Assembly (NCBI GenBank): GCA_017437945.1
Contig: JAFRWP010000007.1
Coordinates: 1-64,000 of the forward strand
Reading direction: 5' to 3'
DNA from: Candidatus Saccharimonadota bacterium
GTDB lineage: Bacteria; Patescibacteriota; Saccharimonadia; Saccharimonadales; Saccharimonadaceae
DNA length: 64,000 nucleotides
Both the position numbers and the translations under genes were made by a program. Under the pieces are notes generated by a model. The model ran no database searches. It saw only the letters and a list, made by a program, of their open reading frames with translations, and was not told the origin of the DNA. The number at the start of each line of letters is the position of its first letter. Position 1 is the first letter of the stretch. Below are positions 11,443-47,441 of the stretch, piece by piece.

Positions 11443-12081
11443 TTACGCGGAGATTTCATTCATGCCGTCGCGGAGAATCCGCAACCGCCAAATCTTCAGC
11501 CTCAGGAAGGGATTAAACAGAATTCCCTTGGTGTAGAGGATGTCGAGCGGTACGCAAATTGCCGCGAAGCACAGAATGATCGCACCCAGGAGTATCCAGC
11601 CATTCGACAAATTGATGCCGACGACCAAACCGAAGAAGCATAGCACTCCGATGATCAGGGCCATTTCGATTATGGCCAAGACAAGGACCTGGCAGGACAT
11701 TCCAAACATGGAAGAGCCGCCAAACGCATAGCCACTTCTTTCGGTGACAACAGCGTCATCGTAGTAGTCGATGGCTTTACTGGCCTTGCGAACGGCCTTC
11801 TGGGCATTTTTTACCCAGTTGTCATCATCCAGGATTACCAGCCTCCGCCGGATATAGGCGATTTTCTCGTCGGTGCGGGCGTTGAGGTAGGCTCTCCTCT
11901 CGGAGACCTTGTCTTCACGCCAGTTCAGGAAACGAATCCACATCTTGCGGCGCCCATTCGCCTTCCCCAGCGCAACCCGGATCTTCATGAGCTTGCCATT
12001 GGCCCGCTCATTCATATCCTTCCGGCGCTGATTCAGCTTCTCGATTTTGTTCTTCAGATAGTTCAGCCAGAATTTTGCCAT
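11443..12081 (-). CDS. Hypothetical membrane protein, 212 aa
   Basis: I do not recognise this protein. The N-terminal ~125 residues are strongly basic and helical, followed by two hydrophobic segments (about 135-160 and 165-190) and a short basic tail, suggesting a cytoplasmic domain with a membrane hairpin. Start ATG 12081 follows a GGGGAGAGAG ribosome site. The gene is a complete unit with a consensus sigma-70 promoter at 12223-12251 and a ~135-base leader with three hairpins. It is inserted between clpP and radA on the opposite strand. It belongs to the accessory class seen at 441, 55123 and 55900. Function unknown. Confidence 0.75.
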   Translation of the reverse strand: MAKFWLNYLKNKIEKLNQRRKDMNERANGKLMKIRVALGKANGRRKMWIRFLNWREDKVSERRAYLNARTDEKIAYIRRRLVILDDDNWVKNAQKAVRKASKAIDYYDDAVVTERSGYAFGGSSMFGMSCQVLVLAIIEMALIIGVLCFFGLVVGINLSNGWILLGAIILCFAAICVPLDILYTKGILFNPFLRLKIWRLRILRDGMNEISA

Positions 12082-14120: not shown

Positions 14121-14149
14121 AAATCTGGCTTCTAAAAGCCAGATTTTTT
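14121..14149 (+). terminator. Terminator of rpsO
   Basis: AAATCTGGCTT and AAGCCAGATTT pair around CTAA, followed by a T-run. Confidence 0.9.
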
Positions 14150-14195: not shown

Positions 14196-15131
14196 ATGAG
14201 CGCTAAAGACGCACCAGGTGAGGTGAATAAAGATAAGGTTTTTGATTCCCCTAGCTCTTCTTCGGGGGATGATGAAATTATTTATAAAGCAGCCGACATT
14301 AAGAAAAGACGAAAAACCGAGTTTTTCGTAAATGTCGAAGGCGCCGAAGAACGTGCCAAAGCTGCTCAGAAACGATTAGAAGAAGAAGAAAAGGCAATTG
14401 CTAAGGCCGAAAAAGACCTGCAGAAGATTGCCGACGCCGAACAGGCAGAAGTAGATAGGGAACTTGTCGAGGAAAGAAAAAAGGTCGACGAGGTTAATGC
14501 CTATATCCAAAAACAACGTAAGGAAAAAGTAAAAGCCGAAGTTAAGGAACGCAATAAGAAACGCAATTCTCGTATCACCAAAATTGTCGCTATTGCCGTA
14601 GCAGCAGTTGCCGTAATTGCAATTGCGGTTATTACGGTCGTTAATCTTGTTATCATTCCGGAACAGAAGCGGCTGGCCGAAGAAGAAGAGCAGCGTCGTA
14701 TCGACGAGCAGGTTAAAGCCGAATTCTTAGCCATTGAGCATAATGCCATTATCGCCAAGTTAAATGTTGACGCCGATCTATTTGAAGCCGTTGAAAACTA
14801 CCATTTCGACGACGTTAAGCGCATTTATGCCGAATATCTTGAAGATGTCACCGATAACGAAACTAAGGCCTATGTATACCTGGATATGGCCGATCGGATT
14901 GCCGCTCACACGACGGATGAATACGATGAGATCATCAATGCGCTCGAGACCGCACGCATTTATGCGCCGAAAGATACTTATGTGCTAAGACGTCTTCGCG
15001 ACGCATATTTAATGGTCGACAACAACGAACAAGTTGCTGCCATCGACGAGGAACTTAAAGAAATTGGCGGCAAAAGGCCAACCGATGAAGAATTAGAAGA
15101 ACAAAACGAGGAAGAGGATGGTCAAGGGTAG
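14196..15131 (+). CDS. Hypothetical single-pass membrane protein with coiled coil and TPR-like domain
   Basis: Not recognised. Residues 1-50 are polar, about 50-125 form a highly charged Glu/Lys coiled coil, and about 127-155 are one transmembrane helix rich in Ala/Ile/Val. The remaining ~155 residues, presumably outside the membrane, are helical with TPR-like spacing and an acidic tail. TAAAAT (14184-14189) ends six bases before ATG 14196, so it is probably leaderless. The stop lies 3 bases before the giant secreted protein, so the two are almost certainly co-transcribed. A role in anchoring or exporting that protein is an inference from position. Confidence 0.75.
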   Translation: MSAKDAPGEVNKDKVFDSPSSSSGDDEIIYKAADIKKRRKTEFFVNVEGAEERAKAAQKRLEEEEKAIAKAEKDLQKIADAEQAEVDRELVEERKKVDEVNAYIQKQRKEKVKAEVKERNKKRNSRITKIVAIAVAAVAVIAIAVITVVNLVIIPEQKRLAEEEEQRRIDEQVKAEFLAIEHNAIIAKLNVDADLFEAVENYHFDDVKRIYAEYLEDVTDNETKAYVYLDMADRIAAHTTDEYDEIINALETARIYAPKDTYVLRRLRDAYLMVDNNEQVAAIDEELKEIGGKRPTDEELEEQNEEEDGQG

Positions 15132-15134
15132 AGT

Positions 15135-18100
15135 ATGAAAAAGAGACTTATATTATCAGTATTAATCGTTTGTTTCTCGCTACTAGGCGCAGTGCTGTTT
15201 GGCGGGAATGATACATATGCAGCAACTGAAAAATGTCTTAGCGCGAACGGACATATGTATGTTAGTTCGCCAAGGGTCGGCCTCGATATTTACGATCTTG
15301 GCGGCGAAACCGGTGTTGGCTGGGCTTGTGATCGTTGGAGCACGAATAGTGCAGTGATTTTCTTCGCAAACTCCGTCAGTATCTCAAATGGTGTTTACAC
15401 GATTTATCCAGATACCGAGTTGTCGAACGGCGATTATACTACTGTTCAGCTTCGTGGCATGGTGCATTACCATGGTAGCGGTACCTCTACGCAATACGCT
15501 AGCCATATTGGGTTCTGCTTAACGGAGGGGACATGCGGCGGTACTGGTCGTACGGGCGAGGCTTCTGTTAATCTGAGCGCCGAGGGCGGCACGGCTGGTG
15601 GAATTGTTAGGGCTGGCTATTCCGGTATTTTGCAGCGCGCCGGAGCATCAAATCCGCATAATCGTGGTACGGATTATTGGGCATTACCATATTATTACAA
15701 TAATATCCAAATTAACAACGCTGTCCTGAGAGATAAAATTAAAAACTGGCGCACATCCGGCCTCACTATTAGCCAGAGCCTCAAAAACGGCGGCCAAGAT
15801 GGTTGGGTGAAGTTCTACATTCACCGTTGCTATAGTACGCGCTCCGACGGTTTGGTCACTGGTAGAAGTACTTGCGAGGAGGGTGCCGTTTATCTATATG
15901 TGACTGGCCTTGTTACGGATAATCCAACTACGTTTGACGGTGCCGTTACGGCCAAAGTTGGTACTTGCACGGGCACTTGTTGGATAGATTCCGCCTCTTC
16001 GTCCGTTACCTTCTATCATCAGATGACGCGCAACAATAACGGCCCAAACTCAAACATTAGCAGCGATTATTGGCTTTACTACGACAAGACGGCCTCTCAG
16101 GTTAATGTTAATACGGCATCTAGTGCTAAATATAGTTATACTTTTGCGAAAAATAGTGGCTGGAAGGATATTAGATCGCATGTCGTAAGCGTCTCTTTGG
16201 ATCCTGGCGAAAGTGTGCAAAAGTGTCAGACGCTTGGTTTTTACGAAACACGAAACGAAAACGGTACCGTCAAATCTGGCAGCGCATTTAAGACGAAGTC
16301 CTCCTGTGTTACCGTTAATCGTTATCAGGACTATACCTTTAGTGGTTCCGTGTCTGGATCGGTCAGAGGCGTAACGAGAGCGGCAGACGGCAAATATTAT
16401 ATCGATTCCGATAGTGCAACCGTAGACTTTGAATCTAACGTTTGCCGCACTGATACGAGTGGCGAAGCGAGCGCGACTACGAACTGGCAGGCTTGGCACG
16501 ATAAAGCGAGTGGCAGCGTTAGCTCGGCCACCAATCCAACAGCTAGCACTACTGGTTCGGCCGCTTTGGCAAAAAAGAATCAAACTGGTCAATGTAGGAA
16601 AGTTCACATAGATACACGTCCTATCACGGGCATTGCTCAAGGCGACTACACGACCAGGGATACGCTTGGCTACTATAATACGGTCTATCATAGTGGCGGT
16701 ATGCATAACTGGACAAAGACTGATGGCGCCGTGACAATTCACCGCTATTACTGGTACAACCTAACCGGCAAAGTGGATGTTTCGGTAACTGGCGCTAAGA
16801 AAGAAGCCAGTACGGGCTATTGGTGGACAGAAAACAACTTTGCTACTCTTCGCTTTACGCACTCTATCAAGAGTGATACGGCTGGCAAAAAGACGAAGTT
16901 CAAGACCAGTAAGAATCCGACTATTAGCAACGATTTTGGCAATCAAGCAAGTTATACCGAAACTTCTGTTCTAACTAATGCTGACACTTGGTATGCTCAA
17001 CTCTATAGCCCTTCATCGGAAGCTAAAACGGCGAACGTTGATAAAGGAGATAATGGCACACAGTTCTGCCAGACGCTTTCCTATTACAGCAAAGTCCGTG
17101 AAGATTTGAATTGGAGCAATTCCTCGACCTATAAAGATGAAGCTACGACTAGCGGCTGTGTGACCGTAAAGCGTCGCAAAACTACCTTCACTGGCTCATC
17201 GAAAGTCTACATTCAGGACAATGGTGCGTCTGTCGAATATACCAACGATCGATATAGCGCCACCGGCTCAACCTATCCAATAATCGTACCGATTACGTTC
17301 GCCCACACGGTGGTACGAAGTAGCAATGATGCGCATGGCTCCGAAAATAACAAGCATTCTCACATTAAGACTTCAATTAATAATGACTCCATCCTTGTGG
17401 TCCATGACGGCGATGATGATGGCAGCGTAATTAATACCGATACTAACGATCTTGCGCCTGGTGGCAGTGATACGAGATCCAATACCTTTAACCTAAAGGT
17501 CTATCCGGGACAGACCGTAAAACTTTGTCAGCAAATGAATTATGTTAGCGAAGTCCAAGGTACGGAGCCAACAGCCACGGCTAATGCTAGTGAAGTATGT
17601 GTAACTGTTACCGCCGCTTCGGCTACTTGTCTTGGTCAAGAGTACGGTATTCATAACGCCAAAAACTATCTTCGCGCTAGTATCTACAAGAATAATGCTG
17701 AGACCGCCAACCAATCGTCTGGCGTTAAATACCAGGGCAGTACTACTATTACGGCTTGGGCAAAACCTGGCGATCAAATTAACTTTAAGTATGAAGGCTG
17801 CGCAGGCGGTGAACTTGCTCGGCAGTATGCCAACGCGACTAATAAAACAGTATATAATGCTGCCGGCAAATCGACAAAGACCAGCCCCGCCTCAGGCGAA
17901 AGCGCCACAGTATATGGCTACCTATTTGGCCGCAGCATGAGCGACTCGCCGTACACTGCATCTAATAAAAATTTCAGTAATGCCAGCGACATTCTTGGTA
18001 CTGGTCCATTCACTGATGGCTCTTACACTATTACTACCTATTCGCCTAGTGGCGACCAAGATGATGATCGTCTCTATTCTTGCGATTTTTATGGTACAAA

Positions 18101-20057
18101 TGGCTTGAATAATTTCTATCGTATTCCAGCGTATATTAATAATTTGACGAATAGTACGTTCCGCAATAGCTGTAAGTCTGACGATTATGGCCGCGTAAAT
18201 GACCTTGGTAGTGTTATTACGCAGGAAGTGACTTGGTCTGACACTCAGTATGTTAATGGCCGACCGGTTACTGATCATAACGGCGCCACTGCAACCATGA
18301 AGTCGGAAGTTAAAATACCTTACAACTACACGACGACCGTAAACAACTCTGGCGTTGGCGGTTATATCATTCCGGGCACCAATCACACCGAGAGCATTAA
18401 GCTTAATGTAGATAGGCGTAGGAATACTCCAGTTAACGGCGCGAACGAATATGCTACTGTCACTAAGCCAACCAAGTATCGCTTGTTGGAAATCGTAATT
18501 GATTCGGATAATACCGATACTTCGACCTACTTCAACAACCTAGTTAATAACCAGGAATACTTCGTCGATGGCAACGGTACTAAAGCCCTAAACAGCACCT
18601 TAAATGTCTGCATACGTTACGGTTGTAGAGTTGTGGCGACTAGTGGTGATAATAAGTATCAGTATGATCCAGCCAAAAACGTTGCGGGCGGCCAGACTGT
18701 CGTTTCGTATACTCGTTATATTCCATATGATACGGAACCTGGCGTTAAATTCTGCTATATCTCTGCCGTATGGCCATCCGATAGCCATAGTCCAGTTACG
18801 GACAGCGAAACTGGCAAACTCGTCCCAATCACCGATCCGACGGCTGCTCAGAATGAGGCTTATGCGCTTTCTAATAACGGCTCTTACTGGCACGTTTCCG
18901 GTGCGACTTGCTATACGGCCGCCAAACGCCCAAGTGTCAATATTCTTGGTGGCGATACCTATGCACAGGGTTACATCTCTGCTCGCGTCCAGAAGTACCC
19001 AGCCGACAACAATAATACTAACCCACGCATCTATGGTTCCTGGACTGAATATGCCGCTATTTCTGGCCTTAGCTTAAAGGGTCTAGCATCTGGTGCATCT
19101 CTTTGGGGTGGCTCTAATATAATTGAGAGCGCCGGTGATGTAGCCGTATCCTGCACTTTCTCGACCTATACCTTTGCAAACGCTGACTGTAAAGACGATA
19201 AGCTAGGCGAATTTGGTATCGATCCTACAACTTCGAGTAATCCGGAAACAATCGCAAACCAAATTATGACTCGTTACACTCGTACCGATAGCACGGGCGA
19301 AATGAATCCAACTAACAGCAATCCTATCGTCGTAAAGGATGGTGGCATTTGCAAGTACAACAACAGGGATAACACCTACGAGCCTTACGATAAGGAAGCC
19401 GGCGCAACCTTCGCATGCATCGGCGACACTGGCGCCAAGTATACGCACGTCAAGAACGAGAACGGTCCAGTCGCCTATATTCCGAACGATGTAAACTACT
19501 GCATGGTCAAAGGTGATACGAACAGTAACCGTACGTCCATTATTCATGCAGATGGCACACTTATTATCGGTACCAATGTCGTCTATGGTAATACGCAACG
19601 ACAATATGTCGGTCAAGACACTACGGATGCTGGCATGTGTTACGAGGACCAATACAACAGCATTTCTGAAATTCCACAGTCAATCATGATTGCAAAGAAA
19701 ATCATTATTAAGGGAAATGTTAAGCATGTTGATTCTTGGTTAATTGCTGATGAAATCATCACCTGTGACCCAAGTGGCAGCTGGCGTAGTGATGTTCCAA
19801 TCTCTGATATTAATGCACATAACTGTAATACACAGCTCACGCTTAATGGTCCAGTTATGACTAAGAGCTTAAAGCTGTATCGTACCTACGGTTCCGGATT
19901 TACCTATGACTCACGGGGTCGCAGAGTAAGTCTAAAATCATCTCCGGCTGAAATCTTCATGATGGGTCCTGAAGTGTACCTCTGGTCATTCAACCAGGCT
20001 CAGCGCTACTCGCAGGCTACCACGACTTACGCCCGTGAGCTCGCACCAAGATACTAA
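15135..20057 (+). CDS. Giant secreted repeat protein, 1640 aa
   Basis: A Sec signal peptide (basic start, hydrophobic core, AYA-like cleavage near residue 30) leads a Ser/Thr/Asn/Gly-rich exported protein. Four tandem ~140-residue modules begin at about residues 266, 402, 542 and 685. Each opens with F/L-x-G-x-V and the first three carry a YW/YYIDS-like strand; modules 1, 2 and 4 have CQTL-or-CQQM-like and CVTV segments, while module 3 ends in CVTVKR. The paired cysteines suggest one disulfide per module. Module 2's closing segment has lost its cysteines (DTLGYY, AVTIHRY). Residues 830-1400 are less repetitive. The C-terminal ~240 residues are beta-rich (IIIKGNVKHVDSWLIADEI) and end in ARELAPRY. 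I see no LPxTG motif, C-terminal membrane anchor or enzyme motif. A surface adhesin or sheath component is plausible but inferred. Confidence 0.85.
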   Translation: MKKRLILSVLIVCFSLLGAVLFGGNDTYAATEKCLSANGHMYVSSPRVGLDIYDLGGETGVGWACDRWSTNSAVIFFANSVSISNGVYTIYPDTELSNGDYTTVQLRGMVHYHGSGTSTQYASHIGFCLTEGTCGGTGRTGEASVNLSAEGGTAGGIVRAGYSGILQRAGASNPHNRGTDYWALPYYYNNIQINNAVLRDKIKNWRTSGLTISQSLKNGGQDGWVKFYIHRCYSTRSDGLVTGRSTCEEGAVYLYVTGLVTDNPTTFDGAVTAKVGTCTGTCWIDSASSSVTFYHQMTRNNNGPNSNISSDYWLYYDKTASQVNVNTASSAKYSYTFAKNSGWKDIRSHVVSVSLDPGESVQKCQTLGFYETRNENGTVKSGSAFKTKSSCVTVNRYQDYTFSGSVSGSVRGVTRAADGKYYIDSDSATVDFESNVCRTDTSGEASATTNWQAWHDKASGSVSSATNPTASTTGSAALAKKNQTGQCRKVHIDTRPITGIAQGDYTTRDTLGYYNTVYHSGGMHNWTKTDGAVTIHRYYWYNLTGKVDVSVTGAKKEASTGYWWTENNFATLRFTHSIKSDTAGKKTKFKTSKNPTISNDFGNQASYTETSVLTNADTWYAQLYSPSSEAKTANVDKGDNGTQFCQTLSYYSKVREDLNWSNSSTYKDEATTSGCVTVKRRKTTFTGSSKVYIQDNGASVEYTNDRYSATGSTYPIIVPITFAHTVVRSSNDAHGSENNKHSHIKTSINNDSILVVHDGDDDGSVINTDTNDLAPGGSDTRSNTFNLKVYPGQTVKLCQQMNYVSEVQGTEPTATANASEVCVTVTAASATCLGQEYGIHNAKNYLRASIYKNNAETANQSSGVKYQGSTTITAWAKPGDQINFKYEGCAGGELARQYANATNKTVYNAAGKSTKTSPASGESATVYGYLFGRSMSDSPYTASNKNFSNASDILGTGPFTDGSYTITTYSPSGDQDDDRLYSCDFYGTNGLNNFYRIPAYINNLTNSTFRNSCKSDDYGRVNDLGSVITQEVTWSDTQYVNGRPVTDHNGATATMKSEVKIPYNYTTTVNNSGVGGYIIPGTNHTESIKLNVDRRRNTPVNGANEYATVTKPTKYRLLEIVIDSDNTDTSTYFNNLVNNQEYFVDGNGTKALNSTLNVCIRYGCRVVATSGDNKYQYDPAKNVAGGQTVVSYTRYIPYDTEPGVKFCYISAVWPSDSHSPVTDSETGKLVPITDPTAAQNEAYALSNNGSYWHVSGATCYTAAKRPSVNILGGDTYAQGYISARVQKYPADNNNTNPRIYGSWTEYAAISGLSLKGLASGASLWGGSNIIESAGDVAVSCTFSTYTFANADCKDDKLGEFGIDPTTSSNPETIANQIMTRYTRTDSTGEMNPTNSNPIVVKDGGICKYNNRDNTYEPYDKEAGATFACIGDTGAKYTHVKNENGPVAYIPNDVNYCMVKGDTNSNRTSIIHADGTLIIGTNVVYGNTQRQYVGQDTTDAGMCYEDQYNSISEIPQSIMIAKKIIIKGNVKHVDSWLIADEIITCDPSGSWRSDVPISDINAHNCNTQLTLNGPVMTKSLKLYRTYGSGFTYDSRGRRVSLKSSPAEIFMMGPEVYLWSFNQAQRYSQATTTYARELAPRY
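15930..17610 (+). repeat. Four tandem protein-level modules in the giant secreted protein
   Basis: Module starts at nucleotides of about 15930, 16338, 16758 and 17187, spaced 408, 420 and 429 bases. The conservation is visible in the protein (opening F-x-G, SATV-x-F, closing CQTL-x-x-Y and CVTV) and not as DNA identity, so this is an old duplication series. Confidence 0.7.
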
Positions 20058-20071
20058 AAATCAAACATGAG

Positions 20072-20103
20072 AAAAGGCCCGGCATAATTGCCGAGCCTTT
20101 TTT
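20072..20103 (+). terminator. Terminator of the giant secreted protein gene
   Basis: AAAAGGCCCGGC and GCCGAGCCTTTTTT pair around ATAATT, with a T-run on the plus strand and an A-run on the minus strand side. Confidence 0.85.
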
Positions 20104-20115
20104 GTTGAAAGGTGC

Positions 20116-20739
20116 TCAGGATTGATGGTCGATACTCTCTGCAAATGCCATGGAGACTTCGTCCATGACGTGATTGGCTTCGAGAATCCTACTTTGGTCA
20201 GATGCAACAATTACCTGCAGCTGCTCGGTCATCAAGCCGGTAGCTCTGTCCAGAGTTGCCGAGACGTTTTCCTCCTTGCAGCCACGCGGATCGTGTGAAT
20301 TTTCATTGTAGACCTCGATAAAGAACGAAATCTCCGTTGTTACGGTTTTCAATTCGTTATCTTTAACGATGCGGGGAGTGACGACTACCCATTTCAGGTC
20401 ATCCTCGCTCCTCTTCGCACGCTTTCGTGCGGGCACCCAGAGCTTCTCGATAATTTTGTCGTAGCTTGCCACGATGCCGGGAATCACGATTTTGCGCTCA
20501 AAACTGATGTCGCTGTTTACGTGCTTTTTGACCTCCGGAGGCATATCGATTGAATATACTCGATAGGGAAGGAAGTGAATCGTGGTCCGATCCAGCTTCT
20601 GGTCGTAGTTGTACTGCATGCTGATTGTGGGATGCTCGTTCGTGATATCCATGAAGATTATCTGCGCTTCGTCCTTCGGCAGTAAGCCTTCGATAACAAT
20701 CTTGGAATCCTTGACCTCCCGAATTCTTTTAATTGGCAT
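20116..20739 (-). CDS. Hypothetical protein, 207 aa
   Basis: Not recognised. I chose ATG 20739, preceded on the minus strand by GGGGTGAT; a longer in-frame ATG at 20793 falls at the predicted transcription start. The protein is soluble, predicted beta-rich in its first half, and has no signal peptide or membrane segment. A basic stretch (VPARKRAKRSEDD) lies mid-protein. It ends in TGA. It has its own consensus promoter (20800-20828) and a short leader with a TCTCG/CGAGA hairpin. It sits between the giant protein gene and pnp on the opposite strand and shares the accessory-class construction. Confidence 0.75.
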   Translation of the reverse strand: MPIKRIREVKDSKIVIEGLLPKDEAQIIFMDITNEHPTISMQYNYDQKLDRTTIHFLPYRVYSIDMPPEVKKHVNSDISFERKIVIPGIVASYDKIIEKLWVPARKRAKRSEDDLKWVVVTPRIVKDNELKTVTTEISFFIEVYNENSHDPRGCKEENVSATLDRATGLMTEQLQVIVASDQSRILEANHVMDEVSMAFAESIDHQS

Positions 20740-20799
20740 TCTATCACCCCTTTTTTCTGTAGTGCCAACCTTATCTCGCCATACACGAGACATATTACT

Positions 20800-32645: not shown

Positions 32646-33503
32646 ATGAATTATTACAAAACCGACCTAAATCACCCGTTCTTGCGTCAAATGATCAAAT
32701 ATCCAGAGATGCCATCCGAGCTCTGAATTCGCGGTCATCTTCCGAATACTGAGCCGCGTCCGCGTGCTATTGCTATAGTCGGTAGTCGCCGCTGCACGAA
32801 GTATGGTGAGCAGGTGGCATACGAAGCGGCATATCAACTAGCCAAGCTCGGGATAATAATCGTGAGTGGTCTGGCTTACGGCATCGATACTTGCGCGCAT
32901 CGTGGCTGTCTAGACGCCGGGGGTATCACGATAGCAGTACTCGGCACACCAATCGACCAGATCCACCCTCGCTCCAATGAGCAACTCGCCGAGCGCATTC
33001 TTGAGCGCGGTGCGATAATTTCTGAGCTCCCGAGCGGTGCGGCCGTTCATGCTTTCAATTTTTCTTTTCGAAATCGCATCGTAGCGGGGCTTGCCGACGC
33101 CACACTAATTGTTGAGGCGGCAGACAAATCGGGTACCATGAGCACAGCCAAGTATACTGATGATCAAAATAAATCTATATATGCCGTACCGGGTGACATC
33201 AACCATCCGATGTCTAAAGGTTGCAACCGCCTAATCCAGGAAGGCGCCATGGTGTATACTGAGCCGAGCGACTTGATGTATGAATTTCATATTGAAGGGC
33301 GCAGTGCCAAGGTTCGTGATTATCTTGCCTGTTCGCCAGAAGAGCAACTGATTATTTGCGCTATAGACCGCGGCAAGAATCGCGATGAGGATATTATTTC
33401 TGAGACTGGTTTAAGCCCAGCCGTTTTTACGAGCAATACCACGATGTTGCAGCTCAAAAACTTAATAAAATCCATCGGAAACGGCGAGTGGGCCCTTGTC
33501 TAG
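32646..33503 (+). pseudogene. dprA: dprA (DNA processing protein A) with in-frame TGA at codon 27
   Basis: DprA loads RecA on incoming single-stranded DNA during natural transformation. From ATG 32646 the frame encodes a DprA N-terminus up to MPSEL, meets TGA at 32724-32726, then continues in the same frame as IRGHLPN and the Rossmann-fold core: IVGSRRCTKYGE, GLAYGIDTCAHRG, FSFRNRIVAGL and GDINHPMSKGCN. In relatives the stop position is often aromatic (L-[FYW]-[IV]-[RK]-G), so TGG to TGA is the simplest change. The next possible start, GTG 32814, would drop the GSR nucleotide-binding loop. A TAATAT box (32634-32639) lies just before the ATG. Recent nonsense mutation, sequencing error and read-through are all possible. 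Confidence 0.75.
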
Positions 33504-40706: not shown

Positions 40707-41129
40707 ATGGAATATCGTCGTTTTGATAACACCATCGTGGCCAGAATCGACCGCGGTGAAGAAATTTTGAGCAAAATTAAAGAAATCGCACTTAAGGAGA
40801 ATATTAAGCTCGCAAACATCAACGCTCTCGGTGCAGTTGATCACTTCGTCGTGGGCGTCTATCAGCTCGACGAAAAACAATATCACTCCAATGAGTTTAA
40901 TGGTTCATACGAGATCGTTTCTCTGACTGGCTCAATTAATACGATGGATGGCGAATTCTATTCACATCTTCATATGTCATGCGGCGACGATCAGGGCCGC
41001 GTGTTTGGCGGACATCTCAATGAGGCGACCGTTTCGGTCACCTGCGAAATGTTTATCCGGGTTATCGACGGAGAGGTTGATCGCTTCAAAGATGAAGAGA
41101 CTGGCATCAATCTATTCAAATTTATCTAG
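40707..41129 (+). CDS. PPC domain (DUF296) protein
   Basis: Small protein of the plants-and-prokaryotes-conserved (PPC/DUF296) family, in which a beta-rich fold forms trimers and a conserved histidine pair is thought to bind a ligand or metal. The segments NINALGAVDHFVVGVY and FYSHLHMSCGDDQGRVFGGHL are diagnostic. Start ATG 40707 has a strong AAAGGAGG. It follows leuS by 17 bases without a terminator and is probably its operon partner. Its cellular role is unknown. The family is often called DNA-binding by analogy with plant AT-hook proteins, but no AT-hook is present here. Confidence 0.88.
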   Translation: MEYRRFDNTIVARIDRGEEILSKIKEIALKENIKLANINALGAVDHFVVGVYQLDEKQYHSNEFNGSYEIVSLTGSINTMDGEFYSHLHMSCGDDQGRVFGGHLNEATVSVTCEMFIRVIDGEVDRFKDEETGINLFKFI

Positions 41130-41946
41130 CTTGGCGCTTGATTAATTTTGCGTGTAGCACAACACGCTCTTTAGTGTTCCAGCACGTCGATAAAGTTAAG
41201 ACTCTATCAGTCGCTGAAATCGTAGCACCGAAATCTTTCGTGCTACGGTTTTTTATAGTCTCGAGAAACTTTAAAAATTGCTTATCGCTAGCAAATGACG
41301 TCTGGATATAATCCGTAGTAGTTGGTATGCGATAAACGCTAAAGACTTGCCAGAGTGCCATCTCGCCATCGCTGGCCGTGCGCACATAGTAATTGTCTGG
41401 ATTATTCAGCCAACCGTTTGTTAGAATGGTGCGCAGCGTGCCAAACATTGAGCCATCGTTGCGACCGTGTGCGTAGAGGATAATATTTTTATCATTGCCA
41501 TCGTTTTTATTGCGAAAATCTTCAAAAATCCAACCAGCCGTGTTGTAACTTTTATCGAACGAGTGCTTTAGATAGAAATCGTTATTAGAAGTCTGAACGA
41601 ACGGGTAATTAATATTAGTGCCGCCGAGTTGAATCCAGCCAGCAGTTTCATTGTTAATATTGCGTAACTCTGTAAAATCTACATCCAGCAAATTTGTATG
41701 TAGATATTTCCAATATGGTGCGTCATCTGGCTCACCCGAGCCGATAACCTGCGTCTTGTCATTATCTTTTATTTCGATAGTTTTGGTGACGTCGTTGATT
41801 TTTGCAGTCTGATCGGATGTGCTGGCGGAATCCGTCACCCATTCAAAAATTTTGTATCCAGAATAGCCCAGACCAATCACACATGCGAGTGCAATTACGC
41901 AGGCAATACTAATCTTAACGCGAGATTTAACCTTCCGGATTTTCAT
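41122..41946 (-). CDS. Class B-like sortase
   Basis: Membrane transpeptidase that attaches or cross-links surface proteins. One N-terminal helix (about 10-32) anchors it. The catalytic histidine is in ILYAHGRNDGSMFG and the catalytic cysteine in LTLSTCWNTKERVV, followed by the arginine in that stretch. The NYPFVQTSNNDFYLKHSF segment resembles class B enzymes. I chose ATG 41946 because TATAAT (41959-41954 on the minus strand) ends 7 bases before it; the longer open frame runs through that promoter. The stop overlaps the convergent PPC gene by 8 bases. No LPxTG or NPxTN substrate is seen in the window. Confidence 0.92.
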   Translation of the reverse strand: MKIRKVKSRVKISIACVIALACVIGLGYSGYKIFEWVTDSASTSDQTAKINDVTKTIEIKDNDKTQVIGSGEPDDAPYWKYLHTNLLDVDFTELRNINNETAGWIQLGGTNINYPFVQTSNNDFYLKHSFDKSYNTAGWIFEDFRNKNDGNDKNIILYAHGRNDGSMFGTLRTILTNGWLNNPDNYYVRTASDGEMALWQVFSVYRIPTTTDYIQTSFASDKQFLKFLETIKNRSTKDFGATISATDRVLTLSTCWNTKERVVLHAKLIKRQAR

Positions 41947-42059
41947 AAAAACAATTATATCATAAGAAGCTTGAACGCACTCCGCCATCCCCTTGCGGAA
42001 CTGTAAAAAATATAGTAAACTAGGTCCAAAGTAATATATCAAAGAAGGAGCATTTTTAC

Positions 42060-42257
42060 ATGCCTGAACCGAAAAAACAGAGTAGCCCTCGCAAGACCGG
42101 CCTTCGCCGCAGTCATTTGCGTTTGGATCTCGCTCGTAGCGTAAACAAGCATTCGCCTGTGAAAGCTTTCGAGACCGCAAAGAAAACCCCAAATCTTAAG
42201 CTCAAGACTTGCAAGAAGTGCGGTAGCAAATCCTGCACCTGCAAGAAAACAAAATAA
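42060..42257 (+). CDS. rpmF: 50S ribosomal protein bL32
   Basis: Small zinc-ribbon protein of the large subunit. The N-terminal LRRSHLRL motif and the C-terminal cysteine cluster fit bL32. The cysteine spacing here is C-x2-C-x4-C-x-C (CKKCGSKSCTC) instead of the usual C-x2-C-x9-C-x2-C, a much compacted ribbon. AAGGAG precedes ATG 42060. A TATAGT box lies at 42011-42016. It heads an rpmF-nusB-nudix-rnc cluster and is divergent from the sortase gene. Confidence 0.88.
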   Translation: MPEPKKQSSPRKTGLRRSHLRLDLARSVNKHSPVKAFETAKKTPNLKLKTCKKCGSKSCTCKKTK

Positions 42258-45251: not shown

Positions 45252-47441
45252 CTACTTCGCGATTTTCTTTTCAGCTGGCCCGTCGTCGCTTTTAGCTTCG
45301 GCGCGCAGTCTAGCGCGATTAATCTTAGTGAGACGCCAAATTACTACGCCGATCAGGATGAGACCGAGAATACCGAACCAAATATATGTAAATCCACCCG
45401 TTAGGCTAAGAGCACAGATTGGCATGGCAATAATTGTAACCCATACCAACCATTCAATGTCGTTGAGTGCCGCATAAATGAGGTAAGCTACTTGTGCAGC
45501 AAGACAGAACGCCATCCAATGACCGCCAGCGGTAACACCAACTGCATAGAGGCCTATACTCATCAAGATATAGCCAAGGAAGAAGCGTCCACGGTCTTTT
45601 TCGTCGAGGTCGCGTTCTTTGATTAAGCTTACAGCCGTGAGAGCACCGCCTATGATGAACGAGCGAATAACGTTGATAGTGGCTATCCAGTTCGTGTATA
45701 AGGATGCTGCCTCTGCGCGGCATGGCTTCATAACCGGGAAGCTATTATTCACGCAGCTCATGGCCGACTCCGGCAATAAGAAGTCGCCAACCGTACCAAC
45801 AAGGCTATATAGACACAATGCTCCGCAGTAAATACTGAGCTCGTAGAGAATCAACTTGCTACCAAGGTATCCGATTAAGGCAAGGTAAAGTGCCGAAATC
45901 AACCAGCCAATCTCTGCATAACCAGTATCAGCCGCACTATAGACAATAAGTAATAGACAAATCACCATTTCGGTCATAGTAATGGCGAACATATCCTTCT
46001 CGTTGTATTTGCGGAAGAAATGATACATCAGTATGATAATGCCGCCAATGATCGTGAAGTAGATAATGTCTGACCAGGCGCTCCAGCCCTTTGCGAGAAG
46101 GCTGTCCATGATGGCGAGACGCCCCAAGAGCAGCGAAGCGGCGGTGGCAATGCTCCAGCGCGCATCTTTATGGACAATTGTATAAGAAATACCAAGTGCA
46201 GCAATTACGAAGCAAATAATCAAGCGGACCGTTGCACCGACTGGATCCACGAGGTCATACGTTAGTATTGGCGTAATGAAGATGCCAACAAGAGAGCATA
46301 CTTCGGCGCGGTGCTCGGCCTTTTCGATTTCTTTGTCTGCTTTTGGTATAAAGAGCGAGAGCATGGTCTGAGCCAGGAAGCTCAGTAGCCAGACGGTAAT
46401 AATTACGAGTTGCGCCATGTCATCTGGACGATGTAGTGTTGATGCAAACAGGGAATAGTTAAGCGCGTCCATAGTCACGGTCAAAAGAAGACCCTGGGCA
46501 ATGAATCGGGTAAATATAAATAGGTTATATGAGCGGTTAATTGACCAGTGGATAATTAGCCATGCGAGGAATAATGCGCAAAGAATCGTGCGCAGGAATG
46601 GGAAGTAAATAATTGAATCCGGGATAATGTAAAGGCTAATCGTAAACAACATTACGGTTGGCATGAAACCGCCGGCGAATTCCTTGGTCGGCAGGCGGAA
46701 GTACAATGGGAGCCAATTTGGTTTTAGTCTCCATAGAATCGCCGGAATCATGGCTACAACCGCGCTAGACGTGTATAGCCAGTAGGCTTGAGTATTTATG
46801 CCGCTATCGGAAACTTTGCCTTCAGGTGTCATTGACCAGGCGATTACGAATAACCAGATGTATGCGAAGTAGGCTGGAATCTTAGATTTGTATATAAATG
46901 CTGTCGTCATGAAGGCTAAGAATGAAATAATCGAGGACAGAATCCAAGCCCCGCGCCAGCTCATGCCGAAGAAATTAAAGGAGATTACCCAGAATGGGAA
47001 AATAGCAAGGGATATATATGTAAAGGCTACACCAACAATCTTAAGATAGTTGATTTTCTTATATATAAATATTCCCAGTATATAAAAGAACAAGGTTAAA
47101 CAAATCGCTACCGGCGCTACGAGGCTATCATTTGCATTATGCGTAAACATAATGATGGCGACTACGAGGAGCGTACTACCAGCGAGCAACATCGCGTTGA
47201 TGCCAGCATACGGATTCTTCTGCTTTGGCTTTGGGGCTGGCTTTGAAGTTGGTTGGGTTACCAAATCTGCAACATCGCTATTTGTATACGAATCGGATGC
47301 TTTATTCTTTTCCTGTGCGCGTTTCCGATTATCGTTTTGTATAAGTAGTAGTATGATCGCCCCAACAATGGCAGGCAGCAACAATGCGCCTAGCGCTCCA
47401 GATAAACTGGAATTGCCGAACATATACCGGAATAATCCCAT
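45252..47441 (-). CDS. Large polytopic membrane protein, 729 aa
   Basis: Not recognised. One hydrophobic N-terminal segment (about 12-32) is followed by a charged linker rich in Lys, Ser and Pro (to about 78), then about twenty hydrophobic helices in close succession. A short Arg/Lys/Asp-rich tail ends it. The helix density recalls DUF2157/DUF2339-type proteins, but I cannot assign it. ATG 47441 follows AGGAGG. It is convergent with khpA and divergent from rpoB. No ATP-binding or glycosyltransferase motif is visible. Confidence 0.8.
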   Translation of the reverse strand: MGLFRYMFGNSSLSGALGALLLPAIVGAIILLLIQNDNRKRAQEKNKASDSYTNSDVADLVTQPTSKPAPKPKQKNPYAGINAMLLAGSTLLVVAIIMFTHNANDSLVAPVAICLTLFFYILGIFIYKKINYLKIVGVAFTYISLAIFPFWVISFNFFGMSWRGAWILSSIISFLAFMTTAFIYKSKIPAYFAYIWLFVIAWSMTPEGKVSDSGINTQAYWLYTSSAVVAMIPAILWRLKPNWLPLYFRLPTKEFAGGFMPTVMLFTISLYIIPDSIIYFPFLRTILCALFLAWLIIHWSINRSYNLFIFTRFIAQGLLLTVTMDALNYSLFASTLHRPDDMAQLVIITVWLLSFLAQTMLSLFIPKADKEIEKAEHRAEVCSLVGIFITPILTYDLVDPVGATVRLIICFVIAALGISYTIVHKDARWSIATAASLLLGRLAIMDSLLAKGWSAWSDIIYFTIIGGIIILMYHFFRKYNEKDMFAITMTEMVICLLLIVYSAADTGYAEIGWLISALYLALIGYLGSKLILYELSIYCGALCLYSLVGTVGDFLLPESAMSCVNNSFPVMKPCRAEAASLYTNWIATINVIRSFIIGGALTAVSLIKERDLDEKDRGRFFLGYILMSIGLYAVGVTAGGHWMAFCLAAQVAYLIYAALNDIEWLVWVTIIAMPICALSLTGGFTYIWFGILGLILIGVVIWRLTKINRARLRAEAKSDDGPAEKKIAK

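Follow-up and report, generated by a model that had tools for sequence, protein, structure and literature searches.

The gene pair and the modules of the secreted protein

The window, a stretch of 64,000 nucleotides, comes from a 952-kb genome of the Saccharibacteria type in 14 contigs. Between rpsO and pnp, and with no type IV pilus (T4P) gene adjoining, two open reading frames lie on the + strand. The upstream frame (14196..15131) encodes a protein of 311 residues, here called the partner, and the downstream frame (15135..20057) encodes a secreted protein of 1640 residues, here called the giant. The gap between the two genes is 3 bases. A terminator-like hairpin of 11 pairs with a T-rich tail (14121..14146, + strand) separates the pair from rpsO, and a second one (20072..20101), terminator-like on both strands, follows the 3' end of the giant gene and faces the convergent gene at 20116-20793. 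Since a hairpin is found on either side, the two genes seem to form a transcription unit of their own, in agreement with the co-transcription claimed in a preliminary description of this DNA.

The convergent gene (20116-20793, - strand, 225 residues) and another gene (11443-12081, - strand, 212 residues) border the radA-rpsO-giant-pnp region on both sides and encode proteins that match no Pfam family at E<=0.01; the same applies to a 729-residue protein at 45252-47441 (- strand). The window also carries a dprA homologue (32814-33503, + strand; DNA_processg_A, 6e-54), which fits natural competence.

The N-terminus of the giant, MKKRLILSVLIVCFSLLGAVLFGGNDTYAATEK, was recognised by inspection as a Sec-type signal peptide (about residues 1-30; 15135..15224, + strand). 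It contains no prepilin-peptidase motif of the [GA]FTLIE type and no type IV pilin N-terminal helix. The hydropathy profile showed this one N-terminal hydrophobic segment and no second transmembrane segment. The motif scan and the hydropathy analysis revealed neither an LPxTG/NPxTN-like motif nor a C-terminal hydrophobic segment, which rules out anchoring by a sortase and upholds the earlier view that the giant is exported without LPxTG or a membrane anchor. A sortase-domain protein is encoded at 41122-42192 (- strand; Pfam Sortase, 2e-10; TTG start) and must therefore serve other substrates.

The four tandem modules of about 140 residues that had been described before proved to be real. They span residues 264-828 (15924..17618, + strand) as m1 (264-399), m2 (400-536), m3 (537-681) and m4 (682-828), with lengths of 136-147 residues. 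In Smith-Waterman comparisons against shuffled sequences m1 to m3 were mutually similar with z values of 5.6 to 9.5, and m4 was joined to the others through m1 (z 6.3); the m2-m4 and m3-m4 similarities were not significant. The giant contains 33 cysteines. The conserved cysteine pairs ascribed to the modules were found as CQ(T/Q)(L/M)..CVTV in m1, m3 and m4, but are missing at that place in m2. Another pair, C1207/C1259, is conserved throughout the family and lies in the region preceding the C-terminal domain (residues 1091-1264; 18405..18926, + strand). By position, this region corresponds to an Ig-like (CARDB-like) domain that was modelled in a distant homologue (L131) just before its solenoid (CARDB, Z 10.3; RbmA, Z 11.0).

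The C-terminal domain, its family and the carboxyl tail

Whole-genome searches found that the relatives share the C-terminal part of the giant and not its modules. In an alignment of 42 members every protein ends with a conserved stretch of about 430 residues; the family-defining part is the C-terminal ~360 residues of the giant, in which C1544 is invariant and C1564 near-invariant. An AlphaFold2 model of residues 1181-1640 (mean pLDDT 78, pTM 0.80) predicted a beta-solenoid from about residue 1265 to 1621. From the alignments, the model and the fold matches, the domain was assigned to residues ~1265-1625 (18927..20009, + strand). With its 15-residue tail, the distinct C-terminal beta domain noticed earlier is larger than had been stated.

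Beta-solenoids are common, and the structural matches of the model were ranked among the Foldseek candidates. DUF3494 ice-binding proteins were matched with Z values of 10.8-12.7 over 170-186 residues and the competence pilin ComZ of Thermus (6qvi_C) with Z 11.8 over 231 residues, at an rmsd of 4.2 and about 10% identity. The model of the distant homologue L131 again showed a DUF3494-like solenoid (Z 10.5). A library of viral structures contained no match. For the ComZ structure, its authors likewise found a DUF3494-type ice-binding protein as the nearest relative, and they argue that its place has to be the tip of the pilus (PMC6561018).

When the giant or its C-terminal profile was compared with Pfam, NCBIfam and the PDB sequences, nothing usable was obtained; zero Pfam families matched the giant at E<=10, and among the PDB sequences no solved structure related to the C-terminal domain was found. 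Neither did a scan of named genomes with a single domain of the window as the query return relatives. The distribution was obtained with a profile of the last ~200 residues, which matched 222 of the 245 genomes sampled from the order (~90%; 219 of 242 among those of good quality), and weaker, more divergent matches occurred across the phylum (89/380). Most members inspected are about 560 to 1900 residues long. The complete TM7i genome (CP075337) encodes one. The profile also matched at G384:C2:316141-316590, in a genome from the same class, where the domain forms part of an exceptionally long open frame (25,343 codons). The accessible literature, outside subscription papers and supplementary files, yielded no published description of the family.

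Within the genome of the window, three paralogous partner-giant pairs are present. The identity of the paralogs to the giant of the window was 26-38% for residues 1-263, 30-52% for the modules, 58-61% for residues 829-1264, 83-84% for the C-terminal domain and 100% for the tail. A rise in identity from the N- to the C-terminus, as seen in these sequences, would be expected of variable heads carried on a constant base.

The tail itself (residues 1626-1640; 20010..20054, + strand) ends with TTTYARELAPRY-COOH. It is conserved and predicted to be unstructured, the last 15 residues having low AlphaFold2 confidence. A sequence close to E-[LV]-[PA]-P-R-[YF]-COOH occupies the exact end of 111 of 112 members, which share kinship and were partly gathered by sequence patterns, so that the counts are not independent; these patterns left the tail out. 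Arginine occurs at position -2 in 108 of the 112, and the columns -2 to -6 each exceed 3.2 bits. The sole exception, NELSPR, looks truncated by one residue. As the tail is conserved yet unstructured, it may be a peptide recognised by the minor-pilin tip or by the partner. Members from other classes of Patescibacteria (L111, L117-L119, L125, L129) have different tails, for example WREVNP, WEEVAP, WQEVAP and WEEVTE, that have no more than an E-[VIL]-x-P-like core in common; some of these members adjoin pilM.

The partner and the type IV pilus gene context

The partner is an N-in, single-pass protein with a charged coiled-coil N-terminus, a transmembrane helix and a putative extracytoplasmic TPR-like domain. 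Its one transmembrane helix was placed by hydropathy at approximately residues 124-152 (14565..14651, + strand) and is preceded by KKRNSR, as expected from the positive-inside rule; the single-pass topology of the preliminary description was thus recovered. The TPR-like repeats are a putative assignment. The partner of the window had no TPR hit in Pfam and no meaningful match in Pfam or NCBIfam, but weak Pfam TPR hits below the cut-off were obtained with a homologue (L075), and the predicted model of the L131 homologue matched TPR domains with Z up to 14.0 over 116 residues. Because helical repeats score high easily in fold comparisons, the TPR call leans also on the weak Pfam hits. Overall, the partner resembles a TPR protein anchored in the membrane. 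When the L131 partner and giant were modelled as one chain, the TPR, Ig-like and solenoid domains were folded, and the tail had a pLDDT of 35-42 with no readable contact.

The linkage of the two genes in relatives, a check that had been named beforehand, was confirmed. The partner is encoded upstream of the giant in all three copies of its own genome. Among the 112 non-redundant close members, 93 loci had enough flank, and in 75 of these a single-transmembrane protein of 120-380 residues was encoded immediately upstream of the giant, compared with 18% for other genes of the same loci. A plain sequence search across the order matched the partner in its own genome only; the linkage was established by position and by iterated profile and HMM searches, which placed most of the small upstream proteins in one family with the partner of the window.

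The downstream neighbours were counted at 101 non-redundant loci with usable flank. Within 3.5 kb, pilM and/or pilN were found in 54 loci and prepilin genes in 23; the identity of PilM was confirmed (Pfam PilM_2, 2.8e-39). A T4P gene was nearby in 77 of the 101 loci and in none of the other 24, the locus of the window included. In strain TM7i the partner-giant pair is placed between ychF and pilM, and the order is a small single-transmembrane gene (84 residues), the family member (1142 residues), pilM, pilN and a pilO-like gene, followed by pilB-like, pilT-like, pilC-like and prepilin genes. Except for PilM and PilN, the genes of TM7i were named by inspecting their sequences. In the genome of the window, the pilM operon (contig C8) lies directly behind ychF with no giant there, and one paralog (C10:53301) is found in the order rny, partner, giant and four prepilin-type genes. 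Since the pair occurs at a minor-pilin locus in this genome and at the ychF-pilM locus in TM7i, it occupies two T4P loci in different lineages. The pair of the window is a dispersed extra copy without T4P neighbours, as are the copies in the 23 other loci.

Tandem arrangements were also observed. Two partner-giant pairs follow each other directly at L041 (G171:C9:31000-43500), in a relative from the same genus. With giants of 1046 and 1261 residues, this tandem suggests a duplication of the cassette. A different arrangement of tandem cassettes occurs at L053 and L054 (G133, G139), where a second homologue of the partner and a further protein with a signal peptide come after the giant.

Possible roles and comparison with known systems

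The earlier interpretation of an exported, unanchored protein with a special C-terminal domain and a linked upstream gene stood, but it had missed the tie to T4P operons. Given this tie, attachment of the family to the pilus tip or to minor pilins is likely, and not attachment to the cell surface at large. We infer an association of the giant protein itself with the pilus, which the gene context supports well. Our preferred reading, which we hold to be reasonably probable, is that the giant is a PilY1-like T4P tip adhesin composed of a variable head and a constant docking base and served by a TPR partner. It would be a non-pilin, Sec-exported component of the pilus located at the tip. The fast-evolving N-terminal half, i.e. 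the N-terminal region and m1-m4, would contact the host surface, and the C-terminal beta-solenoid with the E-[LV]-[PA]-P-R-[YF] tail may form a constant base for docking on the minor-pilin complex. The single-pass TPR protein might hold the giant after export, on the outer side of the membrane, or hand it over, before it is loaded onto a pilus. As the pair of the window is one of three paralogous cassettes, we propose that it could supply an alternative tip, in which the base is unchanged and the head differs. The host contact suggested in the preliminary description would then be better founded than before.

A membrane-anchored, adjacent and conserved partner would also be expected if the giant were a cell-surface adhesin held at the membrane by the TPR protein independently of the pilus, with the proximity to T4P genes reflecting a shared neighbourhood of surface genes. 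Short peptides are well-known ligands of TPR domains, and the copy of the window and 23 other loci of the 101 have no T4P gene nearby. However, at 77 of 101 loci the neighbours are specifically core assembly genes (pilM, pilN) or minor pilins, and two different operons are involved; we regard such a tethered adhesin as unlikely. The fold match to the DNA-binding ComZ raises the question of whether the giant is, as proposed for ComZ, a DNA receptor at the pilus tip for natural competence and not a host adhesin; natural competence has indeed been exploited in the genetics of Saccharibacteria (PMC10633639). Here it counts that the ComZ solenoid is inserted in a pilin, whereas the giant carries a Sec signal and lacks any pilin portion, and that repeated modules, fast-evolving heads and three paralogs better fit the recognition of a variable surface. 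In addition, the T4P genes of S. epibionticum are essential but comEC is dispensable (PMC10633639), and a DNA receptor seems quite improbable.

The near-universal presence of the family in the order would suit a structural factor that primes pilus assembly at the start of filament growth and has no direct adhesive role. In Myxococcus, PilY1 together with minor pilins is reported to prime the assembly of pili (PMC7541494). For priming alone, however, a single genome would not need three paralogs whose heads diverge, and we consider a mere priming function very unlikely. The tip-adhesin reading can also be taken further, to a T4P tip system specific to Patescibacteria in which the tail would be an address tag, and a membrane-anchored TPR escort would read it and load swappable giant heads onto the minor-pilin tip. 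This extension is rather doubtful; if it were true, an episymbiont could swap its host-recognition tips by expressing different partner-giant cassettes.

PilY1 of P. aeruginosa and PilC of Neisseria are tip adhesins of the type IV pilus and also priming proteins. Like them, the giant is a large secreted non-pilin with a variable N-terminus and a conserved C-terminus, and the paralog C10:53301 is encoded with minor pilins, although the copy of the window is not. Unlike them, it has a C-terminal domain predicted to be a beta-solenoid. The giant had no Pfam hit at all and hence none to the C-terminal beta-propeller of PilY1/PilC (Pfam Neisseria_PilC), which was not matched by the 42 C-terminal regions either. 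We know of no counterpart of the conserved carboxyl tail or of the TPR partner in PilY1/PilC. By sequence, the giant is outside the PilY1 family, and it is not a pilin.

With ComZ of Thermus thermophilus (PDB 6qvi) the giant shares a DUF3494-type beta-solenoid in a T4P setting, a likeness of fold only. ComZ is a pilin with an inserted solenoid, whereas the giant has a Sec signal, large N-terminal modules and no pilin helix. The DUF3494 ice-binding proteins are the best fold matches of the C-terminal domain, and this likeness, too, is one of the predicted fold; the DUF3494 profile had no match in the giant of the window or in the 42 C-terminal regions.

Within the Saccharibacteria, PilX2 of Nanosynbacter lyticus TM7x resembles the family in being encoded at a minor-pilin locus with no PilD signal predicted, and it is needed for normal host binding (PMC12206443). 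It is described with an RCC1 beta-propeller as its C-terminal domain (PMC12206443), unlike the predicted solenoid of the giant. Most genera of the family to which the genome of the window belongs are rich in proteins with RCC1 repeats, in open frames of up to 6781 codons. Among the genomes listed there was no RCC1 match in the genus of the window, and the RCC1 domain was discarded as a link to PilX2. In S. epibionticum the T4P genes are essential (PMC10633639). Together with the role of PilX2, this leads one to expect a pilus-borne adhesin in the group, but not that the giant is this adhesin.

How the ultrasmall Patescibacteria recognise their bacterial hosts is a main open question, and type IV pili are the leading suspects. 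The accessible literature names no adhesin that is conserved across the group. The family, with a member in ~90% of the sampled genomes of the order and usually found with pilus genes, is a concrete candidate for a host-recognition protein. It offers a constant base with variable heads, and a short tail with which the docking idea can be probed.
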